Of a DNA stretch of 64,000 nt, positions 13,753-24,810 are shown piece by piece. Numbering within the stretch: position 1 is the stretch's first letter; each line of letters starts with the position of its first letter. The position numbers were made by a program, and so were the translations under genes. The notes below the pieces were generated by a model that saw nothing but the letters and a program-made list of their open reading frames with translations, had not been told where the DNA came from and did not search any database. Origin of the DNA: Kineosporia corallincola (GTDB taxonomy: Bacteria; Actinomycetota; Actinomycetes; Actinomycetales; Kineosporiaceae). The DNA is taken from contig NZ_JAHBAY010000007.1 of the NCBI RefSeq assembly GCF_018499875.1, positions 372,001 to 436,000 on the forward strand, given 5' to 3'.

Positions 13753-16544
13753 GTCCCGGCGGCGGCGACGCCACGGCCCGGTCCGGCAGCGGATTCCCGC
13801 CCGGCCCGGGCGGTTCCGGGCGCGCCGCCACCACCCGCACGAACAGAACCGCCAAGAAGTCGCCCACCACCCAGAAGCCGTCCGGCAGGACGGGAAACCA
13901 GTCCGGCACGTCCGGCGATACGTCGGGAAGTGCCAGGACCATGCGTGGGGACGCCGCCCAGCCCCGGAAGACCTCCACCCGCCAGTCGCCGTCGTCGCGC
14001 TCGGCGGCGAAGAAGCCGGCCACCGCCAGGCCGACCCAGAAGGCCTCCGGCAGAACGGCTTCCGAGAAGAGCTCGAGCGGGTCGGGCCGGTCCTCGTCGG
14101 GCCGGACCGGGGCGGGGCGAACCGCTTCGGGACGCCCGGCGCCGGGTTCCGGGGCGGACCGCGGCTCGCGGTCGGGTCAGTCCTCCGGCTCCGGCCGGTC
14201 GTCCCGCTCGGCTCCCGCGGCCAGGTCGTCCCGGTCGGGCGGGAGCGGCCAGCCGGCGAAATCCGCTCAGACGGCGCGGAAAGCAAGGACGTCCCAGGCG
14301 GCCAAGGCCGCCCAGTCCGGCAGAGCGGCGCAGTCCGGCAGAGCGGCGCAGTCCGGAAGGTCCACGCCGAGCGGTAGGTCCGCGCAGGGCGGCAGGACGA
14401 CGGCGAGCCGTTCCGCCGGGACGCAGGCTCCCCGCACAACCCCATCGGCCCGCAAAACCCCATCGGCCCGGACGGCCCGATCGGCCCCGTCCGCGAAGAC
14501 GACCCGGGCGCGTGAGGCGGCACCGGCGTCCCCCAGGGCTCGTACCCCCCGGACGGCCAGGGAGGCCAAGGCCGCCGCGGCGGCCCGCGCCGCGAGAACC
14601 GGCCGCTCGCACCAGACCCCGGGAACGACGCGGAACCGCAGCACACCCCGCACCGGCCGATCCGCCCGCACCCTCACCGCCTCGGCCCTCGGGCCGGCCG
14701 TGAGATCCGCTCGGGCACAGGCGAAACGGCGCCCACGCGGAGGCGGTCCGGGAGGCCGGGGACCGCGCCCGCCGTTCCCGCGGATGGGCCCGCCCCGCGC
14801 CGGGCAGCCCGACCTGCGGCTGAAGTGGGTCTCCGGCGTCGTCGTGCTGGTGTTCGTGGTGTTCGCCGGAAGGCTGGTGCAGCTCCAGGCTTTCGACGCC
14901 GAGACGCTGTCGGCCGAGGCCCTGGAGAGCCGCTCCGCCACCCGCACCCTGCCGGCCCACCGCGGCGACATCCTGGACACCGACGGCAGTGTGCTGGCCA
15001 CGACCGTGGAGCGCCGCAACATCACCGTGGACCAGACCGTGGTGTCGGAGTACAACTCCAAGGCCGCGGTGCCGGAGGACGAGAAGGGCGCGGCCGGCGC
15101 GGCCAAGAAGATCGCCCCGATCCTCGGGGAGTCGGTCGGTGACGTGGCCCGGACCCTGGCCGGCAACAAGCGTTTCAACTACGTCGCGAAGAGCGTGGAA
15201 CCCACGGTCTGGAGCGACATCTCGGACCTCAACATCCCCGGCGTCTACAGCGAGCAGGCGAGTCGCCGCACCTATCCCGCCGATTCGGTGGCCTCGAACG
15301 TGCTGGGGTTCATGAACGGTGAGGGCGAGGCGGTGTCCGGCATCGAGAAGTCGCAGGACGACCTGCTGTCCGGCACCGACGGCGAGATGACCTACGAGAA
15401 GGGCAAGAACGGGCAGCAGATCGCCACCGGCCTGACCACCGAGACCGATCCGGTGGACGGCAAGGACGTTCAGCTCACCCTGGACCGCGACCTCCAGTAC
15501 AAGTCCCAGGAGGCGCTGGAGGCGGTGGTGAAGAAGTACGACGCCGAGTCGGCCACCCTGGTGGCGCTGAACCCGAAGTCCGGCGAGATCCTGGCGCTGG
15601 CCGACGCCCCGGGCTACAACTCCAACAAGCCCGGCGACAGCGACGTGGCGAACCTGCGTAACCGCACGCTCACCGACGTGTTCGAGCCCGGGTCCACCAA
15701 CAAGGTGATCACCGCCGCGGCCGCGCTGGAGGAGGGCGTGGTGCAGCCCACCAGCAAACTCGAGGTGCCCTACACCCTCGATCGCGGCGCCGCCGGCGTG
15801 ATCAGCGACTCGCACGAGCACGCGACCGAGAGGCTGACGTTCGCAGGCGTTCTCGCCCAGTCGTCGAACACCGGCACGGTCGAGGTCGGCGAGAAGATGA
15901 GCGCGAAGACCATGTACGAGTACCTGACCAGGTTCGGGCTGGGCAGCAAGACCGGCGTCGGCCTGGGGGAGTCGTCGGGCATCCTGGCCGGCTACCAGGA
16001 CTGGGACGGGCGTACCCGGCTGAACGTCATGTTCGGGCAGGGTGTCTCGGTGACGGCGCTCCAGTCGGCCGAGGTGTTCGCCGCGATCGCCAACGACGGC
16101 GTGCGGGTCGCGCCGAAGCTGATCAAGGCGGTCAGCGGCGCCGACGGCAAGCTGGTGGCCGAGCCCGAGGGCAAGAAGACCCGGGTGGTCAGCGCGAAGA
16201 CGGCCCAGCAGGTGCGGCTCATGCTGGAGAGCGTGGTCGGCGAGGACGGCACGGCCGTGGACGCCGAGATCAAGGGTTACCGGGTGGCCGGCAAGACCGG
16301 TACCGCGCAGGCGTACGACGAGGACTGCGGCTGTTACAGCGGGTACACGGCCAGTTTCGTCGGGATGGCCCCGGCGGACGATCCGGAGCTGGTGGTCGCG
16401 GTGTTCGTGCAGAAGCCGGAGGGCGACCACTACGGTGGCACGGTGGCGGCGCCGGTGTTCCAGCAAATCATGTCGGACGCCTTGGTGTCCCAGGGAATTG
16501 AGCCGACGAACACCCGGAAACCCGATCTAGCGCTCGAGTGGTGA
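13749..16544 (+). CDS. ftsI: Septal peptidoglycan transpeptidase FtsI (PBP3) with a very long basic N-terminus
   Basis: Class B penicillin-binding protein of 931 residues; relatives are usually about 580-650. The catalytic half is normal: SxxK as STNK (Ser649), SSN (705-707) and KTGT (Lys849). The membrane helix is at about 361-377, followed by a pedestal domain with the RGDIL motif. Residues 1-345 are a Ser/Arg/Ala/Gly/Thr-rich, strongly basic, low-complexity region on the cytoplasmic side with short repeats (QSGRA). The GTG at 13749 overlaps the ftsL stop (GTGA), which supports translation of the whole region. An ATG at 14784, 15 codons before the membrane helix, would give a 586-residue protein of normal size and cannot be excluded. 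The stop overlaps murE. Confidence 0.93.
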   Translation: MSPGGGDATARSGSGFPPGPGGSGRAATTRTNRTAKKSPTTQKPSGRTGNQSGTSGDTSGSARTMRGDAAQPRKTSTRQSPSSRSAAKKPATARPTQKASGRTASEKSSSGSGRSSSGRTGAGRTASGRPAPGSGADRGSRSGQSSGSGRSSRSAPAARSSRSGGSGQPAKSAQTARKARTSQAAKAAQSGRAAQSGRAAQSGRSTPSGRSAQGGRTTASRSAGTQAPRTTPSARKTPSARTARSAPSAKTTRAREAAPASPRARTPRTAREAKAAAAARAARTGRSHQTPGTTRNRSTPRTGRSARTLTASALGPAVRSARAQAKRRPRGGGPGGRGPRPPFPRMGPPRAGQPDLRLKWVSGVVVLVFVVFAGRLVQLQAFDAETLSAEALESRSATRTLPAHRGDILDTDGSVLATTVERRNITVDQTVVSEYNSKAAVPEDEKGAAGAAKKIAPILGESVGDVARTLAGNKRFNYVAKSVEPTVWSDISDLNIPGVYSEQASRRTYPADSVASNVLGFMNGEGEAVSGIEKSQDDLLSGTDGEMTYEKGKNGQQIATGLTTETDPVDGKDVQLTLDRDLQYKSQEALEAVVKKYDAESATLVALNPKSGEILALADAPGYNSNKPGDSDVANLRNRTLTDVFEPGSTNKVITAAAALEEGVVQPTSKLEVPYTLDRGAAGVISDSHEHATERLTFAGVLAQSSNTGTVEVGEKMSAKTMYEYLTRFGLGSKTGVGLGESSGILAGYQDWDGRTRLNVMFGQGVSVTALQSAEVFAAIANDGVRVAPKLIKAVSGADGKLVAEPEGKKTRVVSAKTAQQVRLMLESVVGEDGTAVDAEIKGYRVAGKTGTAQAYDEDCGCYSGYTASFVGMAPADDPELVVAVFVQKPEGDHYGGTVAAPVFQQIMSDALVSQGIEPTNTRKPDLALEW
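14308..14385 (+). repeat. 15-bp repeats in the ftsI N-terminal extension
   Basis: Near-identical copies of a 15-bp unit containing CAGTCCGGCAGAGCG encode QSGRA-QSGRA-QSGR, then degenerate SGR units. They form part of the basic disordered tail. Confidence 0.75.
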
Positions 16545-18190
16545 TCAGGCGGCCCAGAAACCGGATAGCCTCGACCACCGTGCCGGTCCCACCGCGCGAT
16601 CCCGCGCCCGCCCGTTCTCTGGCCGACGTCGCCGACGTCCTCGGTACCACCGTGCCAGACACCGTCCGTGACATCTCGATCACCGGCGTCTGCCTCGACT
16701 CCCGAGCCGTCCGCCCCGGTGACCTCTACGCCGCGCTGCCCGGCGCGCGCACCCACGGGGCCCGGTTCGCCCGTGGTGCCGCCGAACTGGGCGCCGCCGC
16801 GGTGCTGACCGACCCGGCCGGTGCCGAGCTGGCGGCCGACAGCGGCCTGCCGCTGGTCGTCGTGCCGGCGCCCCGTGAGCTGCTGGGCGGCCTGGCCGCC
16901 TGGTTGTTCGGCGCCCCCGCCGAGCAGATGCTGACGTTCGGTGTCACCGGCACCAACGGCAAGACCACCACCACGTTTCTGCTGGACGGGGCGCTGCGGG
17001 CCGGGGGTCGCCGCTGCGGCCTGATCGGCACCGTGATGACCCGGATCGTCGACGAGCAGATCGACAGCAAGCGCACCACCCCCGAGGCCCCCGACCTGGC
17101 CGCGCTGATGGCGCAGATGGTGCGCCGGGGCGTCGAGGTCTGCTCGATGGAGGTCTCCAGCCATGCCCTCTCGATGGGGCGCGTCGACGGGATCCGGTTC
17201 GACGTGGCCGGATTCACCAACCTCTCGCAGGACCACCTGGACTTCCATCCGACGATGGAGGACTACTTCGCGGCCAAGGCCGACCTGTTCACCCCGGCGC
17301 GGGCGAAGCAGGGCGTGGTGTGTGTGGACGACGAATGGGGCCGGCGCCTGGCCCGCGAATCCGGTGTCCCCGTCGTGACCTTCACCACCCTCGGGCCGTG
17401 GAGCTCGGGGGACGACTTCGCGACCTCCTCGTCGTCCACCATTGACGCCGACTGGCGGGTGACCGCCGCCCGCCCGCACGAGGGCGGCACCGACTTCGTG
17501 CTGGCCGGGCCGGACGGCGTGACGCTCGACGCCCGCTGCCCGCTGCCCGGCGAGTTCAACGTGGCCAACACGGTGCTGGCGCTGCTGATGCTCGTCGTCT
17601 CCGGCACCGCCCCGGGCGACGCCGCCCGCTGGCTGGCCGCCGCCCCCGCGGTGCCGGGCCGGATGGAGCAGGTCGGCCTGACCGGCTCCGGGCGGCCGCT
17701 GGCGGTCGTGGACTACGCCCACACCCCCGACGCCGTGGCGACCGCCCTGCGGGCGTTACGCCCCTCGGCCTCGGGCCGGAACGGCCCGCTGGTGGTGGTG
17801 ATCGGCGCCGGTGGCGACCGGGACCGCGACAAGCGGCCGAAGATGGGCGCCGAGGCGGCCCGTCACGCCGACGTCGTCGTGGTCACCGACGACAACCCGC
17901 GCTCCGAGGTACCGGCCCGGATCCGGGCCTCGGTGCTCGAAGGTGCACGATCCGTGAACGGCGCCACCGCCGAGGTGCTGGAGGTCGCCGACCGCCGCGA
18001 GGCGATCGCGACCGGCGTCCGGATGGCCGGCCCGAACGGGATCGTGCTGGTCGCGGGCAAGGGCCACGAACGTGGCCAGGAGGTCGCCGGAGTGGTGCAC
18101 CCCTTCGACGACCGGGAGGTGCTCGTCGGCCTGCTCGGCAGGCCGGGCGGCACCCAACCGGTTCCGGTCTCCCAAGGACGGAACCGGTGA
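16541..18190 (+). CDS. murE: UDP-MurNAc-tripeptide synthetase MurE (meso-DAP type)
   Basis: Mur ligase, 549 residues, adding meso-diaminopimelate to UDP-MurNAc-L-Ala-D-Glu in the cytoplasm. ATP loop TGTNGKTTTT begins at residue 137. The carbamylated-Lys segment is in NLSQDHLDFHPTMEDYFAAKADLF. VDYAHTPDA, and DNPR at 451-454 match the signature of DAP-adding enzymes. The start is taken as GTG at 16541, overlapping the ftsI stop as GTGA; GTG at 16538 or 16580 are alternatives. Leu406 is encoded by TTA (17756), rare in such genomes. The usual next gene, murF, is not present; 180 bp later mraY begins. Confidence 0.94.
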   Translation: MIRRPRNRIASTTVPVPPRDPAPARSLADVADVLGTTVPDTVRDISITGVCLDSRAVRPGDLYAALPGARTHGARFARGAAELGAAAVLTDPAGAELAADSGLPLVVVPAPRELLGGLAAWLFGAPAEQMLTFGVTGTNGKTTTTFLLDGALRAGGRRCGLIGTVMTRIVDEQIDSKRTTPEAPDLAALMAQMVRRGVEVCSMEVSSHALSMGRVDGIRFDVAGFTNLSQDHLDFHPTMEDYFAAKADLFTPARAKQGVVCVDDEWGRRLARESGVPVVTFTTLGPWSSGDDFATSSSSTIDADWRVTAARPHEGGTDFVLAGPDGVTLDARCPLPGEFNVANTVLALLMLVVSGTAPGDAARWLAAAPAVPGRMEQVGLTGSGRPLAVVDYAHTPDAVATALRALRPSASGRNGPLVVVIGAGGDRDRDKRPKMGAEAARHADVVVVTDDNPRSEVPARIRASVLEGARSVNGATAEVLEVADRREAIATGVRMAGPNGIVLVAGKGHERGQEVAGVVHPFDDREVLVGLLGRPGGTQPVPVSQGRNR

Positions 18191-18370
18191 AGCGAGGATC
18201 CTTCCGGATCGGTACGGTGAGCGCCGGCGCACGGTCGTCCGGCCCGGCTGGAGGACCGCCCGCCTGATGTACGGCATGAGTACTGCTTGCCCCCGCAAGT
18301 CCCCCGGCAGCACGCCGGCGACTGCCCACCCGGCAGCCGCCCGGCGACGAATGAGAGAGACAGAGGCAGC
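18191..18370 (+). other. Spacer where murF would normally lie
   Basis: Actinobacterial clusters usually read murE-murF-mraY. Here only 180 bp separate murE and mraY. A 35-codon frame (ATG 18267 to TGA 18374) ends in a GTGA overlap with the mraY start, the same junction style as the true genes. Its product has no recognisable Mur ligase motif; it could be chance, a small leader, or the last remnant of a deleted murF. Confidence 0.6.
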
Positions 18371-19456
18371 GTGAGAACGGTCCTGATCGCCGCGGCCGTG
18401 TCGCTGATCTGTGCGCTCTTCGGAACCCCCCTGTTCATCCGGTTCCTGGTCAAGCGCCGCTACGGTCAGTTCGTCAGGGATGACGGCCCTACCTCGCACC
18501 ACGTCAAACGAGGCACCCCGACCATGGGTGGCGCGGTGATCATCGCCGCCACCCTGCTCGGCTACGTGGTGGCCCACGCCATCACGCTGGACGGGCCGAC
18601 GATGTCCGGCCTGCTGGTGCTGTACCTGATCACCGGTCTCGGCCTGGTCGGGTTCCTCGACGACTTCATCAAGATCAGCAAGCAGCGGAGCCTGGGACTG
18701 ACGGCCGGCGGCAAACTCGCCGGGCAGTCGTTCGTCTCGATCACCTTCGCCATCCTGACGTTGCAGTTCCCCGACAGCGGGTTCCGCACGCCCGGCACCA
18801 CGTCGATCTCGTTCATCCGCGACACCGCGGTCGACCTGGCGTTCGCCGGGCCGCTGATCGGCCTGATCCTGTACATCGTCTGGACCTACATCATCATCGC
18901 CGGCGCCAGTAACGGCGTGAACCTCACCGACGGCCTCGACGGCCTGGCCACCGGCGCCAGCGTCATGGTCTTCGGCGGTTACGTGATGATCGGGATCTGG
19001 CAGTCCAACCAGTCCTGCCAGCTCGCCTCCGGCGCCGGCCCGCAGTGCTACGAGGTACGCGATCCGCGTGACCTCGCGGTGGTGGCGGCCTGCGTGATGG
19101 GTGCCTGCTTCGGGTTCCTGTGGTGGAACGCCTCCCCGGCCAAGATCTTCATGGGCGACACCGGTTCGCTGGCCCTCGGCGGCGGTCTGGCCGGCCTGGC
19201 CGTGACCACCCGCACCGAACTGCTGCTGGTGCCGCTCGCCGGGCTGTTCATCATGATCACCCTCTCGGTGATCATCCAGATCGGCTCGTTCAAGCTCACC
19301 GGCAGACGGGTGTTCCGGATGGCGCCGCTCCAGCACCACTTCGAGCTGATGGGCTGGGGCGAGGTGACGATCGTGATCCGGTTCTGGATCATCGCCGGTC
19401 TCTTCGTCGCCCTCGGTCTCGGGGTGTTCTACGCGGAGTGGGTGGTCGGCATATGA
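18371..19456 (+). CDS. mraY: Phospho-MurNAc-pentapeptide transferase MraY
   Basis: Polytopic membrane enzyme of 361 residues that transfers phospho-MurNAc-pentapeptide to undecaprenyl phosphate, giving lipid I. About ten hydrophobic segments. Family motifs seen: [12 protein letters not shown] near the N-terminus, [13 protein letters not shown] (Asp pair), [15 protein letters not shown] (catalytic Asp) and [11 protein letters not shown], and the C-terminal [11 protein letters not shown]. The GTG at 18371 is chosen because the family starts with (M)RxVLIAAAV, with AGAGG 4 nt upstream. The stop overlaps the next ATG. Confidence 0.95.
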
Positions 19457-20901
19457 CGGCCGACCCGCTGAACAACGAGTGGGACGGCCTGAGGGTGGTC
19501 GTCGCGGGCATCGGGATCTCCGGCTTCGCCTGTGCCGACGCCCTGCTGGAACGCGGCGCCCGGGTGATCGTGCTCGACCGCACCGATGCCGGATCGCGGC
19601 GTGAGCGCGGCATCGTGCTGGAGACCCTGGGCGCCGACATCCGGCTCGGCGCCGAGCATGTCGGCGGGCTGCCCGGCGAGACCGACCTGCTGGTCGTGTC
19701 GCCGGGCTGGACCGAGGAACAGCCGGTGGTGGCGGGTGCCCTCGCCGCCGGTGTGCCGGTCTGGGCCGAGGCCGAACTGGCCTGGCGGTTGCGTCCGGCC
19801 ACCGGCGCGGCGCCCTGGCTGACCGTCACCGGCACCCGGGGCAAGGCGACCACCACCACGATGCTGGCCACCATGCTCGCGGCCGACGGCAGGCGCGCCA
19901 CCTCCACCGGTCAGGCCGGCACCTCGCTGCTGGAGTCGGTGCTGCACCCCGAGCCGTACGACGTGCTCGCCGTGCAGCTGTCGGCGTTCCAGCTGCGCTG
20001 GTCGTCGAGTCTGCGGCCGCAGGCCTCGGTCTGCCTGAACGTCGGCCCCGCCGACACCGGCAGCCTGGCCGACCGCGGCAAGGTGTACCAGAACACCGAG
20101 ATCGCCTGCGTCTACAACACCGCCGACCCGGCCACCGAGGATCTGGTGCGCGAGGCCGAGGTGATCGAGGGCGCCCGGGCGATCGGGATCACCGGCGGCG
20201 TGCCCGCCGTGTCGATGCTCGGCCTGGTCGAAGACGTGCTCTGCGATCGGGCGTTCGTGCCGCAGCGCAGCACCTCCGCGGCCGAGCTGGGCACGACCGA
20301 GGACGTGCGCACCGCGGGCGCCGGGGTGCTCGCCGCGCACAACCTGATCAACGCCCTGGCCGCGGCCGCCCTGGCCCGCGCCCACGGGGTGTCGCCGATC
20401 GCCGTGCGTGACGGCCTGCGGCACTACTACCCGCTGCCGCACCGGCTGAACCTGCTGAACCACGCGCACGACGTGGACTGGATCGACGACTCCTCGGCCA
20501 CCGACGCGTTCGCCGCGGCGGCCGGGCTGGCGAGCTTCGAGTCGGTGGTCTGGATCGCCGGTGGTCACGGCACGGTCCCGGCCGACCTCGACGCCGTGGT
20601 GCAGAAGTACGCGCCCCGCCTGCGCGGCGTGGTGCTGCTGCCCGGTGACGGCACCGCCGGGGTGCGTGAGGCGCTGGGCCGACACGCCCCGGATGTCCCG
20701 GTCCTCGATGCCGTCGTCCCCGAGACTGGGACGATGCCCGAGATCGAGCCGGTGATGCGGTCCGCCGTGGAACTGGCCGCCGGGCTGGCCCGGGCCGGTG
20801 ACACGGTGCTGCTGTCGCCGGTGCTCGGTGCCCCCGAGGGCGAACCGTTCTCGGGCCGCGGTCAGGCGTTCGCCGCCGCGGTGAAAGACGTGACCGGGTG
20901 A
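19453..20901 (+). CDS. MurD-like protein with degraded active site (candidate pseudoenzyme)
   Basis: 482 residues, in the murD position, with MurD-type N-terminal Rossmann, central and C-terminal domains. The frame is intact and both ends overlap neighbours by 4 bp. Compared with known MurD motifs, many key residues differ. The ATP loop GTNGK(T/S)T reads GTRGKAT (127-133): Lys kept, the metal-binding Ser/Thr changed to Ala. E(L)SSFQL reads QLSAFQL (Glu to Gln at 175). The NxxxDHLDxH segment reads [15 protein letters not shown] (196-210): metal-binding His lost, carbamylated Lys apparently Arg208. DDSKATN reads DDSSATD (345-351). The C-terminal SPxxxSxDxF loop reads [15 protein letters not shown] is kept. 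Catalytic MurD activity therefore looks doubtful; a structural or regulatory role, or altered chemistry, is inference. If it is inactive, a true MurD must be encoded elsewhere. Confidence 0.85.
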
Positions 20902-22160
20902 CGGTCGCCGCCGAGTCACCGTTCGCCGGCCGGGCGGCCTCGCTGTCCCGCCAGGTGGCCGGGCGGCTGAACTCACCCCTCACCTCGTACTACCTGGTGC
21001 TCGGCGCCACCGTCACGCTGACCTGCATCGGCCTGGTGATGGTGCTGTCCAGCTCCAGCGTCGAGTCGATCGCCGACGGTGCCTCGCCGTTCACCGAGTT
21101 CTGGAAGCAGGCGATGTTCGCGGCGCTCGGCTTGCCCGGGCTGGTCATCTGCATGCGGGTGCCGCCGCGCATCTGGCAGATGCTGGCCTGGCCGATGCTG
21201 CTGGCCGCCTTCCTGCTCCAGGCACTCACTTTCGTGCCGCACATCGGCGTCGGCACCAACGGCAACCACAGCTGGATCGCGGTCGCCGGTTTCACCCTCC
21301 AGCCCGCCGAGGTCGGCAAGCTCGCCCTGATCGTCTGGGGCGCCACCGTGCTGGTGCGCAAGCGCCCGCTGATCCACCGGCCGATGCACGCCCTGATCCC
21401 GGTGGTGCCGGGGGCCGGCGTGCTGCTGATCCTGATCATGGGCGGAAAAGACCTGGGGACGGCGATGGTCGTGATGGCCATCGTCGCCGGGCTGCTGTTC
21501 GTGGCGGGCGCCCCGCTGCGGATCTTCGCGGCCGCCTCCGGCGTGCTGCTGTTCGCCGTGCTGGTGCTGGTGCAGGCCAGCAGCAACCGGCTGGACCGGA
21601 TCGGCAGCTGGATGAGCGGGTGCAGCGCCACCAGTGAACAGGCCCAGGGCAGCTGTTTCCAGAGCGTGCACGGGCAGTGGGCACTGGCCTCCGGCGGCTG
21701 GTGGGGCGTGGGCCTCGGCGGCAGCCGGGAGAAATGGGGTCTCCTGCCGGAGGCCCACAACGACTTCATCTTCGCCATCGTCGGCGAGGAGCTGGGCCTC
21801 GTCGGTACCTTGCTCGTGATCGGCCTGCTGCTGACCCTGTGTCTCGGCCTGGCCCGGATCGTGCTGCGCACCGACGACGAATTCGTGAAGATCGCTACCT
21901 CGGGAGTTCTGATCTGGGTGGTCACCCACTCCGTCATCAACATCGGTGGGGTCGTCGGGCTCCTGCCGATCGTCGGAATGCCGCTGCCGCTGGTCTCCAG
22001 CGGTGGAACGGCGCTCATCACGATGCTCGCCGCCCTCGGCATGGTGCTCGGCTTCGCCCGGCGCGAGTCCGGGGTCGCCGAGGCACTGGCTGCCCGCGCC
22101 GGGTTGGTACAGCGATCACTTGCCGTGCTTCCGGTGCGGCGGAACGGTAGGAACCGATGA
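20898..22160 (+). CDS. ftsW: Septal peptidoglycan glycosyltransferase FtsW
   Basis: SEDS family membrane protein, 420 residues with about ten membrane segments. It polymerises lipid II at the septum together with FtsI. Characteristic segments: NGNHSWIAVAGFTLQPAEVGKLAL, GGKDLGTAMV, the extracellular LLPEAHNDFIFAIVGEELG and the final GLLPIVGMPLPLVSSGGTALI. The GTG start overlaps the stop of the MurD-like gene. Confidence 0.95.
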   Translation: MTVAAESPFAGRAASLSRQVAGRLNSPLTSYYLVLGATVTLTCIGLVMVLSSSSVESIADGASPFTEFWKQAMFAALGLPGLVICMRVPPRIWQMLAWPMLLAAFLLQALTFVPHIGVGTNGNHSWIAVAGFTLQPAEVGKLALIVWGATVLVRKRPLIHRPMHALIPVVPGAGVLLILIMGGKDLGTAMVVMAIVAGLLFVAGAPLRIFAAASGVLLFAVLVLVQASSNRLDRIGSWMSGCSATSEQAQGSCFQSVHGQWALASGGWWGVGLGGSREKWGLLPEAHNDFIFAIVGEELGLVGTLLVIGLLLTLCLGLARIVLRTDDEFVKIATSGVLIWVVTHSVINIGGVVGLLPIVGMPLPLVSSGGTALITMLAALGMVLGFARRESGVAEALAARAGLVQRSLAVLPVRRNGRNR

Positions 22161-23248
22161 GTCTCTCCGTCGTACTGGCCGGTGGTGGAACCACCGGCCA
22201 CATCGCCCCCCTGCTGGCCCTGGCCGACTGCCTGCGCCGTCGCGACCCGGCCACCAAGATCACCGCGCTGGGCACCGCCGAGGGCCTGGAGGCCCGCCTG
22301 GTGCCGGCCGCCGGTTACGACCTGGAGCTGATGCCCCGGGTGCCGATGCCGCGCAAGCCGTCCCCGGCGCTGCTGCACCTGCCGGGCAACCTGAAGGCCG
22401 CGATCGACGCGGCCGCCGCGGTGCTCGAAGGTGCCGACGTGCTGGTCGGTTTCGGCGGTTACGTGTCCTCGCCGGCCTACCTGGCCGCGCGCCGGCTCGG
22501 GGTGCCGTTCGTGGTGCACGAGGCCAACGCCAGCCCCGGGCTGGCGAACAAGCTGGGCGCCCGGTTCACCCCGCACGTCGCGGTCACCTTCCCGGGCACG
22601 CCGCTGCGTCACGCCCAGGTGATCGGCCTGCCGCTGCGCCGGCAGATCACCATGCTGGACCGTGACTCGCAGCGCGAGACGGCCCGGGTGGCGCTCGGCC
22701 TGAAACCGAACCAGACCACGCTCTTCGTCACCGGCGGCTCGCTCGGCGCCCAGCGCCTGAACGAGACCTTCGGCCGCTCCGCCTGGCTGCTGCACGGCGC
22801 CGGGGTGCAGGTGCTGCACACCGCGGGCCGCGGCAAGACGGTGCTGTTCGACGACGGCGACCAGCCGCCGAACTACCTGGTCACCGAGTACCTGGACCGG
22901 ATGGACCTGGCCTACGCGGCCGCCGACATGGTGGTCTGCCGCTCCGGGGCCGGCAACGTCAGCGAGGTCACCGCGCTGGGTCTGCCCGCCGCCTACGTGC
23001 CGCTGCCGATCGGCAACGGTGAGCAGCGGCACAACGCCGAGCCGGTGGTGCGCGCCGGGGGCGGTCTGCTGGTCGACAACGACGCCTGCGACCCGATCTG
23101 GGTGGCGAACACCCTGCTGCCGATCCTGAACGACCCCCAGCGCCTGTGGGCCATGGGCGACGCCGCGGCCCGCTTCGGGATCCGTGACGCAGACGAGCGG
23201 CTCGCCTCGATGGTCGAGGTCGCGGCCGGCCGGGGAGGCCACCGATGA
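22157..23248 (+). CDS. murG: UDP-GlcNAc:lipid I transferase MurG
   Basis: GT-B fold glycosyltransferase of 363 residues at the inner face of the membrane, converting lipid I to lipid II. The N-terminal glycine loop is AGGGTTGHIAP, followed by GFGGYVSSPAYLAA and VVHEANASPGLANKLGA. The UDP-GlcNAc region RSGAGNVSEVTALGLPAAYVPL is followed by GNGEQRHNA, where the family motif is conserved. Starts by ATGA overlap with ftsW and ends overlapping murC. Confidence 0.95.
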   Translation: MSLSVVLAGGGTTGHIAPLLALADCLRRRDPATKITALGTAEGLEARLVPAAGYDLELMPRVPMPRKPSPALLHLPGNLKAAIDAAAAVLEGADVLVGFGGYVSSPAYLAARRLGVPFVVHEANASPGLANKLGARFTPHVAVTFPGTPLRHAQVIGLPLRRQITMLDRDSQRETARVALGLKPNQTTLFVTGGSLGAQRLNETFGRSAWLLHGAGVQVLHTAGRGKTVLFDDGDQPPNYLVTEYLDRMDLAYAAADMVVCRSGAGNVSEVTALGLPAAYVPLPIGNGEQRHNAEPVVRAGGGLLVDNDACDPIWVANTLLPILNDPQRLWAMGDAAARFGIRDADERLASMVEVAAGRGGHR

Positions 23249-24810
23249 GCATGTCCGATCCCTCCGCACCGGGCAGCGATCCCACGCTCAGCGTGCCGAC
23301 GATGGCCGGTTCGCGAGTCGGTGGCCGGCTCAGCGGCGAGGCCACCGTCACCGGTGCCACCGGCGCCCCGATGGTGGACGAGCCGATCCTGGCCGCCCAC
23401 CTGATCGGTATCGGCGGCGCCGGGATGTCCGGCATCGCCCGGCTGCTGCTGGCCCGCGGGGTCGTGGTGTCGGGCAGCGACAACCGGGACAGCCCGGTGC
23501 TGGCCGCGTTGCGGGCCGGCGGGGCCGCCGTCTTCATCGGCCACCGGGCCGACCAGGTGCCGGCCGGGTCCACCGTGGTGATCTCCTCGGCCGTGCGCCC
23601 GGAGAACCCGGAACTGGTGGAGGCCCGGGAACGCGGCCTGCGGGTGCTGCACCGCTCGGAGGCGCTGGCGGCGCTGATGACCGGCCGCCGCCCGGTGGCG
23701 ATCGCGGGCACCCACGGCAAGACCACCACCACCGGCATGACCACCGTGCTGCTGCGGGAGTGCGGGCTGGACCCGTCGTTCGCGATCGGCGGCGAGCTGA
23801 CCGAGGGCGGTCAGGGCGCCCACGACGGCGCCGGTGACATCTTCGTGGCCGAGGCGGACGAGTCGGACGGCTCGTTCCTGCTGTACCGACCCGAGGTCGC
23901 GGTCATCACCAACGTCGAGGCGGACCACCTCGACCACTACGGCACCGGCGAGGCGGTCGAGGCCGCGTTCGCCGAGTTCTGCCAGCGGGTCGTGCCCGGA
24001 GGCATGGTGGTGGCCTGCGGTGACGACGAGGGCGTGCGCCGGGTGCTGCACCAGGTGGCGCCCAAGCTGGCCGCGCACGCGGTGCGGGTCTGCCGGTACG
24101 GGCTGGACGAGGACAACGACGTGCGCCTGGTCGACGTCGAGGACACCCCGGACGGCGTGCGGTTCTCGATCGAGGCCCGGCCGGACGGCTCCCGGATCGG
24201 CCCGGTCACCCTGCGCGTGCCGGGGGTGCACAACGCCCTGAACTCGGTGGCCGCCTGGTGCGTCGCCCGGCACTTCGGGGTGTCCGGTGCCCCGGCGCTG
24301 ACCGCGGTCCGCAGCTTCGGCGGCACCCGGCGCCGGTTCGAGGACAAGGGCACCGAGGACGGCGTCCGCGTCGTCGACGACTACGCGCACCACCCCACCG
24401 AGGTGCGCGCGGTGCTGAAGGCCGCCCGCGCGGTGGTCTCGGACGGCCGGGTGCTCGCCGTGTTCCAGCCGCACCTGTTCAGCCGCACCCGGATCTTCGC
24501 CGAGGACTTCGGCGCCGCGTTGTCGCTGGCCGACGAGGTGGTGGTGCTCGACGTGTACGCGGCCCGGGAGGACCCGGAGCCCGGTGTCACCGGTGAGCTG
24601 GTGGCGAAGGCGGTGCGGCTGCCGGAGTCCCAGGTCGCCTACCGCCCCACCGCCACGGCCGCCGTCGAGGAGGTGCTGCGCCGCGCGCAGAAGGGTGACC
24701 TGGTGCTCACCATCGGCGCCGGTGACGTGACCGCGCTCGGCCCGGCCATTCTCGACGCGATCCGTTCCGGGCACACTCCGGCGGACGAGGGCGAGCACAC
24801 GCCGGCATGA
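23245..24810 (+). CDS. murC: UDP-MurNAc:L-alanine ligase MurC
   Basis: Mur ligase of 521 residues adding L-Ala to UDP-MurNAc. Unlike the MurD-like neighbour, all motifs are intact: IGIGGAGMSGIA, ATP loop GTHGKTTTTGM, EADESDGSF, NVEADHLDHYG (metal-binding His) and VDDYAHHPTE. The first 45 residues are a nonconserved, probably flexible extension. This intact ligase is a useful internal control showing that the changes in the MurD-like gene are not a general trend of the cluster. Confidence 0.95.
   Translation: MSMSDPSAPGSDPTLSVPTMAGSRVGGRLSGEATVTGATGAPMVDEPILAAHLIGIGGAGMSGIARLLLARGVVVSGSDNRDSPVLAALRAGGAAVFIGHRADQVPAGSTVVISSAVRPENPELVEARERGLRVLHRSEALAALMTGRRPVAIAGTHGKTTTTGMTTVLLRECGLDPSFAIGGELTEGGQGAHDGAGDIFVAEADESDGSFLLYRPEVAVITNVEADHLDHYGTGEAVEAAFAEFCQRVVPGGMVVACGDDEGVRRVLHQVAPKLAAHAVRVCRYGLDEDNDVRLVDVEDTPDGVRFSIEARPDGSRIGPVTLRVPGVHNALNSVAAWCVARHFGVSGAPALTAVRSFGGTRRRFEDKGTEDGVRVVDDYAHHPTEVRAVLKAARAVVSDGRVLAVFQPHLFSRTRIFAEDFGAALSLADEVVVLDVYAAREDPEPGVTGELVAKAVRLPESQVAYRPTATAAVEEVLRRAQKGDLVLTIGAGDVTALGPAILDAIRSGHTPADEGEHTPA

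Follow-up and report, generated by a model that had tools for sequence, protein, structure and literature searches.

We analyzed a 64,000-nucleotide stretch of the Kineosporia corallincola genome (NCBI RefSeq assembly GCF_018499875.1, contig NZ_JAHBAY010000007.1, positions 372,001 to 436,000; referred to here as the window), which carries P0001, a murD-like gene in the division and cell wall (dcw) cluster. Our data indicate that P0001 almost certainly does not encode a working MurD ligase, having been replaced by MurD2 and MurL. Judged by its sequence, P0001 is the orthologue of the dcw operon MurD turned pseudoenzyme, with most of the metal, ATP-phosphate, and D-Glu residues lost. A route through L-Glu (MurD2, then MurL) has very probably replaced MurI and MurD in Kineosporia, and this likely cause lies outside the window. 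The dead frame is under purifying selection across all three of its domains, and we think it probable that P0001 is kept as a structural, docking, or regulatory component of the machinery encoded by the dcw cluster. More tentatively, we suggest that the dcw MurD may now be devoted to a structural, non-catalytic role in the precursor and divisome complex and so represent a natural separation-of-function allele.

The original prediction had described an intact MurD-like frame with coupled overlaps in which five catalytic motifs are changed. The frame is indeed open over 482 amino acids and shares ATGA with mraY and GTGA with ftsW, and the five losses are all real: the P-loop, Glu157 (now Gln), the DHLDWH...K segment, DDSKATN (now DDSSATD), and the SxDxF loop. 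The losses extend beyond these five to Asn138 (Gln), Lys348, and Asn322 (Asp). An alignment to MurD of related genera had also been proposed; ours contained dcw MurDs from six Kineosporia genomes and from 11 others (seven of the same family and four MurL-positive genomes from elsewhere in the class), together with the six Kineosporia MurD2 proteins, with residues numbered as in Escherichia coli MurD. We found that all six Kineosporia dcw MurDs have lost the P-loop Ser/Thr (Ala) and P-loop Asn (Arg), Asn138, Glu157, Asp182, His183, Lys198, Lys319 (Ser or Ala), Asn322, and Lys348, together with Ser415 (Ala), Asp417, and Phe419 (Gly) of the C-terminal loop, while all of these residues are intact in the 11 other dcw MurDs (with P-loop Thr for the Ser of E. 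coli). Since the losses are shared by six Kineosporia genomes and absent from the 11 others, we rejected sequencing error as their cause. Within the MurD family Glu157, His183, and the P-loop Ser/Thr have metal-binding roles. The metal-ligand positions 157, 183, and 198 are occupied in the six Kineosporia proteins by Gln, by Asp or Glu, and by Arg, Tyr, or Phe, respectively; the columns of Asp182, His183, and Lys198 adjoin a gap and shift slightly between two alignments, with the residues absent in both. Carbamylation of Lys198 is reported to be essential for MurD activation (PMC4816537), and ligand contacts reported for the D-Glu site include Lys348, Thr321, Ser415, Asn138, and Ser159 (PMC3527612). 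Lys319 is counted with Lys348 and Ser415 among the D-Glu site residues (PMC3527612, PMC8788868).

We asked how the losses are distributed over conserved sites. The 11 canonical copies share 137 invariant columns, 93 of which are kept by the dead copies. Nine of these columns are cited in papers as substrate or metal residues, and seven of the nine are lost (Fisher p 0.005), although this set is small and hand-picked, with Phe422 left out (Tyr in the canonical copies, Phe here and in E. coli). Among sites invariant in seven sister-genus genomes, 83 of 254 in MurD are not kept in all six Kineosporia species, compared to 25 of 210 in MurC, 25 of 211 in MurE, 28 of 191 in MurG, 20 of 226 in MraY, and 23 of 145 in FtsW (murE of one genome, G067, and murC of another, G060, run off their contigs and are omitted). 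The MurD share is thus 2.1 to 3.7 times that of its five operon neighbors (Fisher p <= 2.4e-4 each). The mean distance among the sister genomes is 0.402 for MurD versus 0.55-0.86 for MurC, MurE, MurG, and FtsW, which makes the invariance filter weaker for MurD, and MraY (mean distance 0.328) is therefore the fairest control.

The same residues bear on two other explanations. The active site might have been rebuilt for another amino acid or substrate, a changed reaction that the original prediction had left open. Replacements fixed in all six species (P-loop Asn to Arg and Thr to Ala, N138Q, E157Q, N322D, S415A, and F419G) speak for such a site, but none of Glu157, His183, Lys198, and the P-loop Ser/Thr has been kept, and the residue at pocket position 348 changes freely among the Kineosporia species (T, P, P, D, P, T), unlike in a working pocket. 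Because the metal, phosphate, and amino acid sites are gone and position 348 varies, we consider a changed reaction very unlikely. A non-catalytic ligand sensor, which would bind UDP-MurNAc-(L-Ala) and/or ATP and report the precursor level to MurC, MurD2, or MurL, or would buffer the intermediate, agrees better with what has been kept. All six proteins retain the N-terminal-domain motifs GxGxSG and SPG, the P-loop Lys, the HN motif, Ser159, Gln162, His301, Arg302, Asp317, and Thr321, and most of these (GxGxSG, SPG, the P-loop Lys, HN, His301, Arg302, Asp317, and Thr321) we take to line the UDP and adenosine sites, while the metal and Glu sites are lost. For this pattern on the UDP and adenosine sides, sensing is almost as good an explanation as a structural role. 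The retained motifs are also structural, however, Asp35 is Glu in one of the six proteins, Asn138 is lost, and ligand binding is a prediction from the residues, so that we regard a sensor as unlikely, if less so than a new reaction.

A search of the same genome for a second complete murD, which had been proposed as a check, found one. One other MurD scores over the cut-off (C15:89150-90433, 254 bits), and its start (L001 1462-2805) overlaps the last 8 nucleotides of a MurL homologue (L001 78-1469). This MurD retains Glu157, His183, Lys198, and Ser415, a complete catalytic set. Xanthomonas oryzae MurD2 is reported to differ from E. coli MurD at four positions near the Glu site (PMC8788868); three of these changes, K348R, A414P, and L416F, are present in the C15 protein, and D182E is not. 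With its catalytic set, specificity residues, and murL neighbor, the C15 paralogue thus has the features of a MurD2, D182E excepted. In the 24 MurL-adjacent MurDs that we aligned, position 319 is always Leu and position 348 always Arg. We rejected the idea that P0001 is itself the MurD2, as it lacks the catalytic set and K348R and does not lie beside murL, while the MurD2 residues and the murL neighbor are found at C15. The MurL homologue matches NF041275 over nearly its full length (337.3 bits, E 1.1e-100) and misses the curated cut-off of 700, which belongs to a Xanthomonadales model and is reached by none of the 394 genomes of the class. No PDB chain matched MurL at E <= 0.001. The best MurI match in the genome has 23.3 bits versus a cut-off of 146.65; besides MurL, MurI was the source of D-Glu covered by the families searched, which did not include D-amino-acid transaminase. 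An alternative pathway through MurD2 and MurL was reportedly described by Feng et al. in 2017, as cited in reviews. As published, L-Glu is attached by MurD2 and then epimerised by MurL using ATP, and both the X. oryzae enzymes and orthologues from Micromonospora and Salinispora are reported to be active (PMC8788868, PMC5808125).

Within the family (13 genomes), all six Kineosporia genomes contain MurL and MurD2 and have no MurI over the cut-off, versus a canonical MurD (360-382 bits), MurI over the cut-off, and no MurL in all seven members of other genera; it is this split that points to replacement of MurI and MurD by the L-Glu route. The idea that MurL took over throughout the order was rejected, because among 59 genomes (three of them, besides the window's own, also in the family set) MurL occurs in one, the window's own, while MurI is matched in 58 and exceeds the cut-off in 53. 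In trees of MurL and of MurD2, the Kineosporia genes join a genus (g60) of another family (f36) with support of 0.992 and 0.988, and this placement, along with the occurrence of MurL in none of the seven other genomes of its own family, would fit horizontal acquisition of both genes. Across the class, 23 of 394 genomes contain MurL at E <= 1e-30. Among the 22 besides the window's own, four keep a canonical second MurD (G160, G199, G120, and G391) and one keeps a shortened copy (G155). MurI is over the cut-off in four (G160, G199, G376, and G120) and just below it in G391. The four genomes with canonical MurD and MurD2-MurL are possible intermediates of the pathway switch. The remaining 17 of the 22 show no further MurD at E <= 1e-30, a limit that the Kineosporia dead copies, scoring 1.7e-67 to 1.9e-36, would pass; for 16 of the 22 the absence is a result of this search, and some assemblies are 81-88% complete. 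In G389, one of the 17, whose dcw locus was read directly, the mraY and ftsW matches lie approximately 340 nucleotides apart with no MurD-like frame between them (L138 11640-11985, G389:C1). In G155, of another family, a further dead dcw MurD, a frame of 338 amino acids, is in place in the cluster (L137 6991-7995, G155:C1) with a destroyed P-loop, Asp at Glu157, no DH motif, and no C-terminal domain; its GC content by codon position (0.76, 0.47, 0.90) is coding-like, and in this one genome both a kept and a decaying gene fit. Retention of dcw murD is thus not automatic, because the gene is deleted in G389 and shortened in G155.

We reasoned about constraint on the dead gene from the ratio of nonsynonymous to synonymous substitution rates (omega), estimated with IQ-TREE (GY+F3X4) across the six Kineosporia species, with murC of G060 omitted since it runs off its contig. 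Omega is 0.106 for the dead murD, 0.113 for ftsW, 0.091 for murE, 0.080 for murL, 0.071 for murG, 0.066 for murC, 0.056 for murD2, and 0.028 for mraY, which places the dead gene at the loose end of the operon range, exceeded among the genes compared by ftsW only. Setting omega to 1 (with kappa fixed at 1.71) lowers the log-likelihood of the dead murD from -4548.2 to -4882.8, a cost of 335 units. By region, omega is 0.106 in the N-terminal, 0.082 in the middle, and 0.117 in the C-terminal domain, and 0.076 from the P-loop to the deletion. Pairwise NG86 values for three pairs are above the maximum likelihood value (murD 0.121, 0.311, and 0.270; ftsW 0.121, 0.249, and 0.308; murE 0.087, 0.290, and 0.263), and murD is near ftsW and murE by both methods. 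Outgroup omegas were set aside for their very long trees (up to 31.9). None of the six frames is broken (482, 481, 485, 480, 485, and 482 amino acids), so that neither frame breaks nor an omega near 1 mark P0001 as a pseudogene, and we rejected a decaying gene. A related idea is that P0001 is a passive relic, a dying gene held open by translational coupling within mraY-murD-ftsW. The start and stop codon overlaps with mraY and ftsW would agree with this, as would the shortened dcw copy of G155 and the missing one of G389, but coupling would constrain the ends only, while the length stays at 480-485 amino acids in six species, all domains are constrained, and omega is far from 1; a passive relic is highly improbable. 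The picture is one in which catalytic constraint would have been lost once, followed by steady constraint on the rest of P0001. Selection for a non-catalytic role, as suggested by the original prediction, thus gains support from the second complete MurD, the residue losses in six of six genomes, and purifying selection.

It is an old suspicion that Mur ligases assemble into complexes with the division machinery, but in enzymes that are essential a structural role is difficult to tell apart from catalysis. We hypothesize that MurD2 extends UDP-MurNAc-L-Ala with L-Glu and that MurL epimerises the added L-Glu to D-Glu, which would have freed the dcw MurD from catalysis while selection kept the fold and surfaces of P0001. 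The protein would then most likely serve as a docking or regulatory part joining MraY, MurG, FtsW, and other Mur enzymes, and might still bind UDP-MurNAc-peptide or nucleotide without turnover. The more specific suggestion of the original prediction, a scaffold between MurG/FtsW and the precursor enzymes, is plausible. In Mycobacterium tuberculosis, MurD and other Mur ligases are reported to interact in fragment complementation with FtsZ, FtsW, FtsQ, Wag31, the SepF homologue, and PknA/B, and MurI with MurD (PMC3605390), while in Bordetella MurG is reported to form an oligomeric scaffold that serves the cytoplasmic steps (PMC6420597).

Several points weigh against this proposal. The M. tuberculosis Mur ligases are reported to show no mutual interaction in the same assay (PMC3605390), and the binding partners and scaffold role of P0001 are ones that we infer. 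Purifying selection could also be explained by residual chemistry or ligand sensing. The MurL matches lie below the NF041275 cut-off, and activity of Kineosporia MurL and MurD2 is predicted from homology, gene pairing, and the published activity of orthologues. The Kineosporia MurD stem branch is not unusually long compared to its neighbors, with a ratio of stem to mean crown distance of 2.35 (murE 1.10, murC 4.41, murG 1.35, mraY 2.12, and ftsW 2.32); what appears distinctive in P0001 is where the changes fell and not a general burst of change. Finally, a structural role would not be general to MurL users, because at E <= 1e-30 a further MurD is missing from 17 of the other 22 genomes with MurL. 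This last count also bears on a possible obligate partnership of P0001 with MurD2 or MurL (as a heteromer subunit or allosteric activator), which would make it part of the new pathway rather than the old operon complex. Its co-occurrence with MurD2 and MurL in all six Kineosporia genomes would be expected of such a partner, but the 17 genomes have no further MurD-like match at that limit, and recombinant Xanthomonas MurD2 and MurL are reported to work in vitro alone (PMC8788868, PMC5808125), which leaves an obligate partnership with little probability.

In comparison with canonical MurD, P0001 shares the orthologous dcw position, full length, a score over the NCBIfam cut-off, and its nearest PDB sequences and fold, and differs in lacking the catalytic metal, phosphate, and D-Glu residues. 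It passes the MurD equivalog model TIGR01087 with 227.4 bits (cut-off 211.95), so this model accepts a protein without catalytic residues, and an annotation pipeline built on it would call P0001 a MurD. Against the Pfam gathering scores, P0001 exceeds that of MurD-like_N (34.8 versus 27) and falls below those of the middle and C-terminal domains, Mur_ligase_M (20.1 versus 24) and Mur_ligase_C (22.2 versus 28.4), a weak test given that the C15 MurD2 with its full catalytic set also misses one (MurD-like_N, 25.4 versus 27). In the PDB, the best sequence matches of P0001 are MurD enzymes, and the alignments span almost all of the protein. An AlphaFold2 model built on an alignment of five rows is of low quality (mean pLDDT 66.1, pTM 0.50, residues 197-296 below 50), and with this model Foldseek places MurD structures at the top (E 4.8e-25, TM 0.47 by query length). 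MurT, the glutamate amidation partner, is marked by its C-terminal domain, which is not among the Pfam matches of P0001 at E <= 0.001, and one viral_contigs scan returned no relative. The nearest named relatives are in Kineosporia rhizophila, mesophila, and babensis (78-83% identity); the MurDs encoded in the seven sister-genus genomes are 54-61% identical to P0001.

A Mur ligase homologue kept outside cell wall synthesis has a precedent in the plant chloroplast, where a MurE-like protein is part of the plastid transcription complex, although that is a different family member in an organelle and another context. The Mur complexes reported for Bordetella (PMC6420597) and M. tuberculosis (PMC3605390) likewise give dcw Mur proteins a structural role, but the proteins there are active enzymes, whereas in Kineosporia structure seems to be separated from catalysis. 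The Kineosporia genome shares with MurD2/MurL users the MurL-MurD2 pair and the lack of a MurI over the cut-off; the actinobacterial genera listed in PMC8788868 (Micromonospora, Actinoplanes, Verrucosispora, and Salinispora) omit Kineosporia, which is probably to be added to the users of this route. A retained dead dcw MurD is not mentioned in the passages of PMC8788868 and PMC5808125 that were consulted, and we found no description of one in the literature searched, which leaves most subscription journals outside. The pathway and the protein family are known, and what appears to be new is a MurD pseudoenzyme kept under selection in the dcw cluster across a genus. Evolution seems to have parted the two roles, with catalysis in all likelihood moved to MurD2 and MurL and the old protein kept. 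If this is true, the structural role of MurD is separate from its chemistry and strong enough for selection to maintain it even after the chemistry has been outsourced. Pathway reconstructions and target lists for Kineosporia could also name the wrong gene.

The coordinates of P0001, its motifs, and the neighboring genes are collected below. The gene order in the cluster is mraW, ftsI, murE, mraY, P0001, ftsW, murG, murC, ftsQ, and ftsZ, where mraY, murE, and murC were identified by family search and the others were assigned by their position, sequence, and conservation. As the original prediction had stated, the motifs of MurC and MurE are intact. The true mraY start is probably later than the listed TTG.

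Features of the pseudo-murD region (positions in the window)
Feature	Position	Strand	Remarks
Pseudo-MurD gene P0001	19453..20901	+	482 amino acids, dcw position between mraY and ftsW
N-terminal (UDP-binding) domain, limits approximate	19453..19806	+	GIGISG and SPG kept; Pfam MurD-like_N; omega 0.106
Degenerate P-loop TGTRGKATT (canonical TGTNGKTTT)	19828..19854	+	Asn to Arg, metal-binding Thr to Ala, Lys kept
GQAG (canonical GN(V/I)G)	19909..19920	+	Asn138 lost
VQLSAFQ (canonical VE(L/V)S(S/T)xQ)	19972..19992	+	Glu157 to Gln
GPAD	20044..20055	+	canonical DH...K segment (Asp182, His183, carbamylated Lys198) deleted or replaced
DDSSATD (canonical DDSKATN)	20485..20505	+	Lys319 and Asn322 lost; Asp317 and Thr321 kept
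GGHGTV (canonical GGLxKG)	20560..20577	+	Lys348 lost
D-Glu loop (canonical LAPAxAS(M/W)DxF..Y)	20812..20850	+	Ser415 lost
mraY, upstream partner	18287..19456	+	overlaps pseudo-murD by ATGA (at 19453); family search
ftsW, downstream partner	20898..22160	+	GTGA overlap (at 20898); named from position and conservation, without family search
murE (control)	16538..18190	+	catalytic motifs intact; family search, motifs by eye on translation
murC (control)	23245..24810	+	catalytic motifs intact; family search, motifs by eye on translation

The gene directly upstream of murL-murD2 in all six Kineosporia genomes is pgeF/yfiH (TIGR00726, 162 bits in the window's genome, cut-off 141.15), and the three genes form one cluster in each (L143 3874-4731, G000:C15; L144-L148). 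Among the 18 other MurL loci read (two of them short, L169 and L171), pgeF lies within the fetched stretch in seven, while in three of four sister-genus loci read it follows ftsZ; it does not occur in the window. PgeF/YfiH is reported to be an amidase that removes UDP-MurNAc-L-Ser made by MurC (PMC8844914), and pgeF-murL-murD2 is a possible transferable module for early UDP-MurNAc-peptide steps. A second, distant MurL homologue (151 bits) occurs in four of the six Kineosporia genomes (L149 6128-7492; G000:C12:36211-37335); in the window's genome it is preceded by a frame that by eye resembles an inositol monophosphatase and followed by a gene of the beta-keto acid cleavage enzyme family (PF05853). 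In all six Kineosporia genomes murF is absent from between murE and mraY (window 18190-18287; L136) and is located at C8 in the window's genome (G000), and the gap between murE and mraY is likewise closed in one genome of a sister genus (G015).

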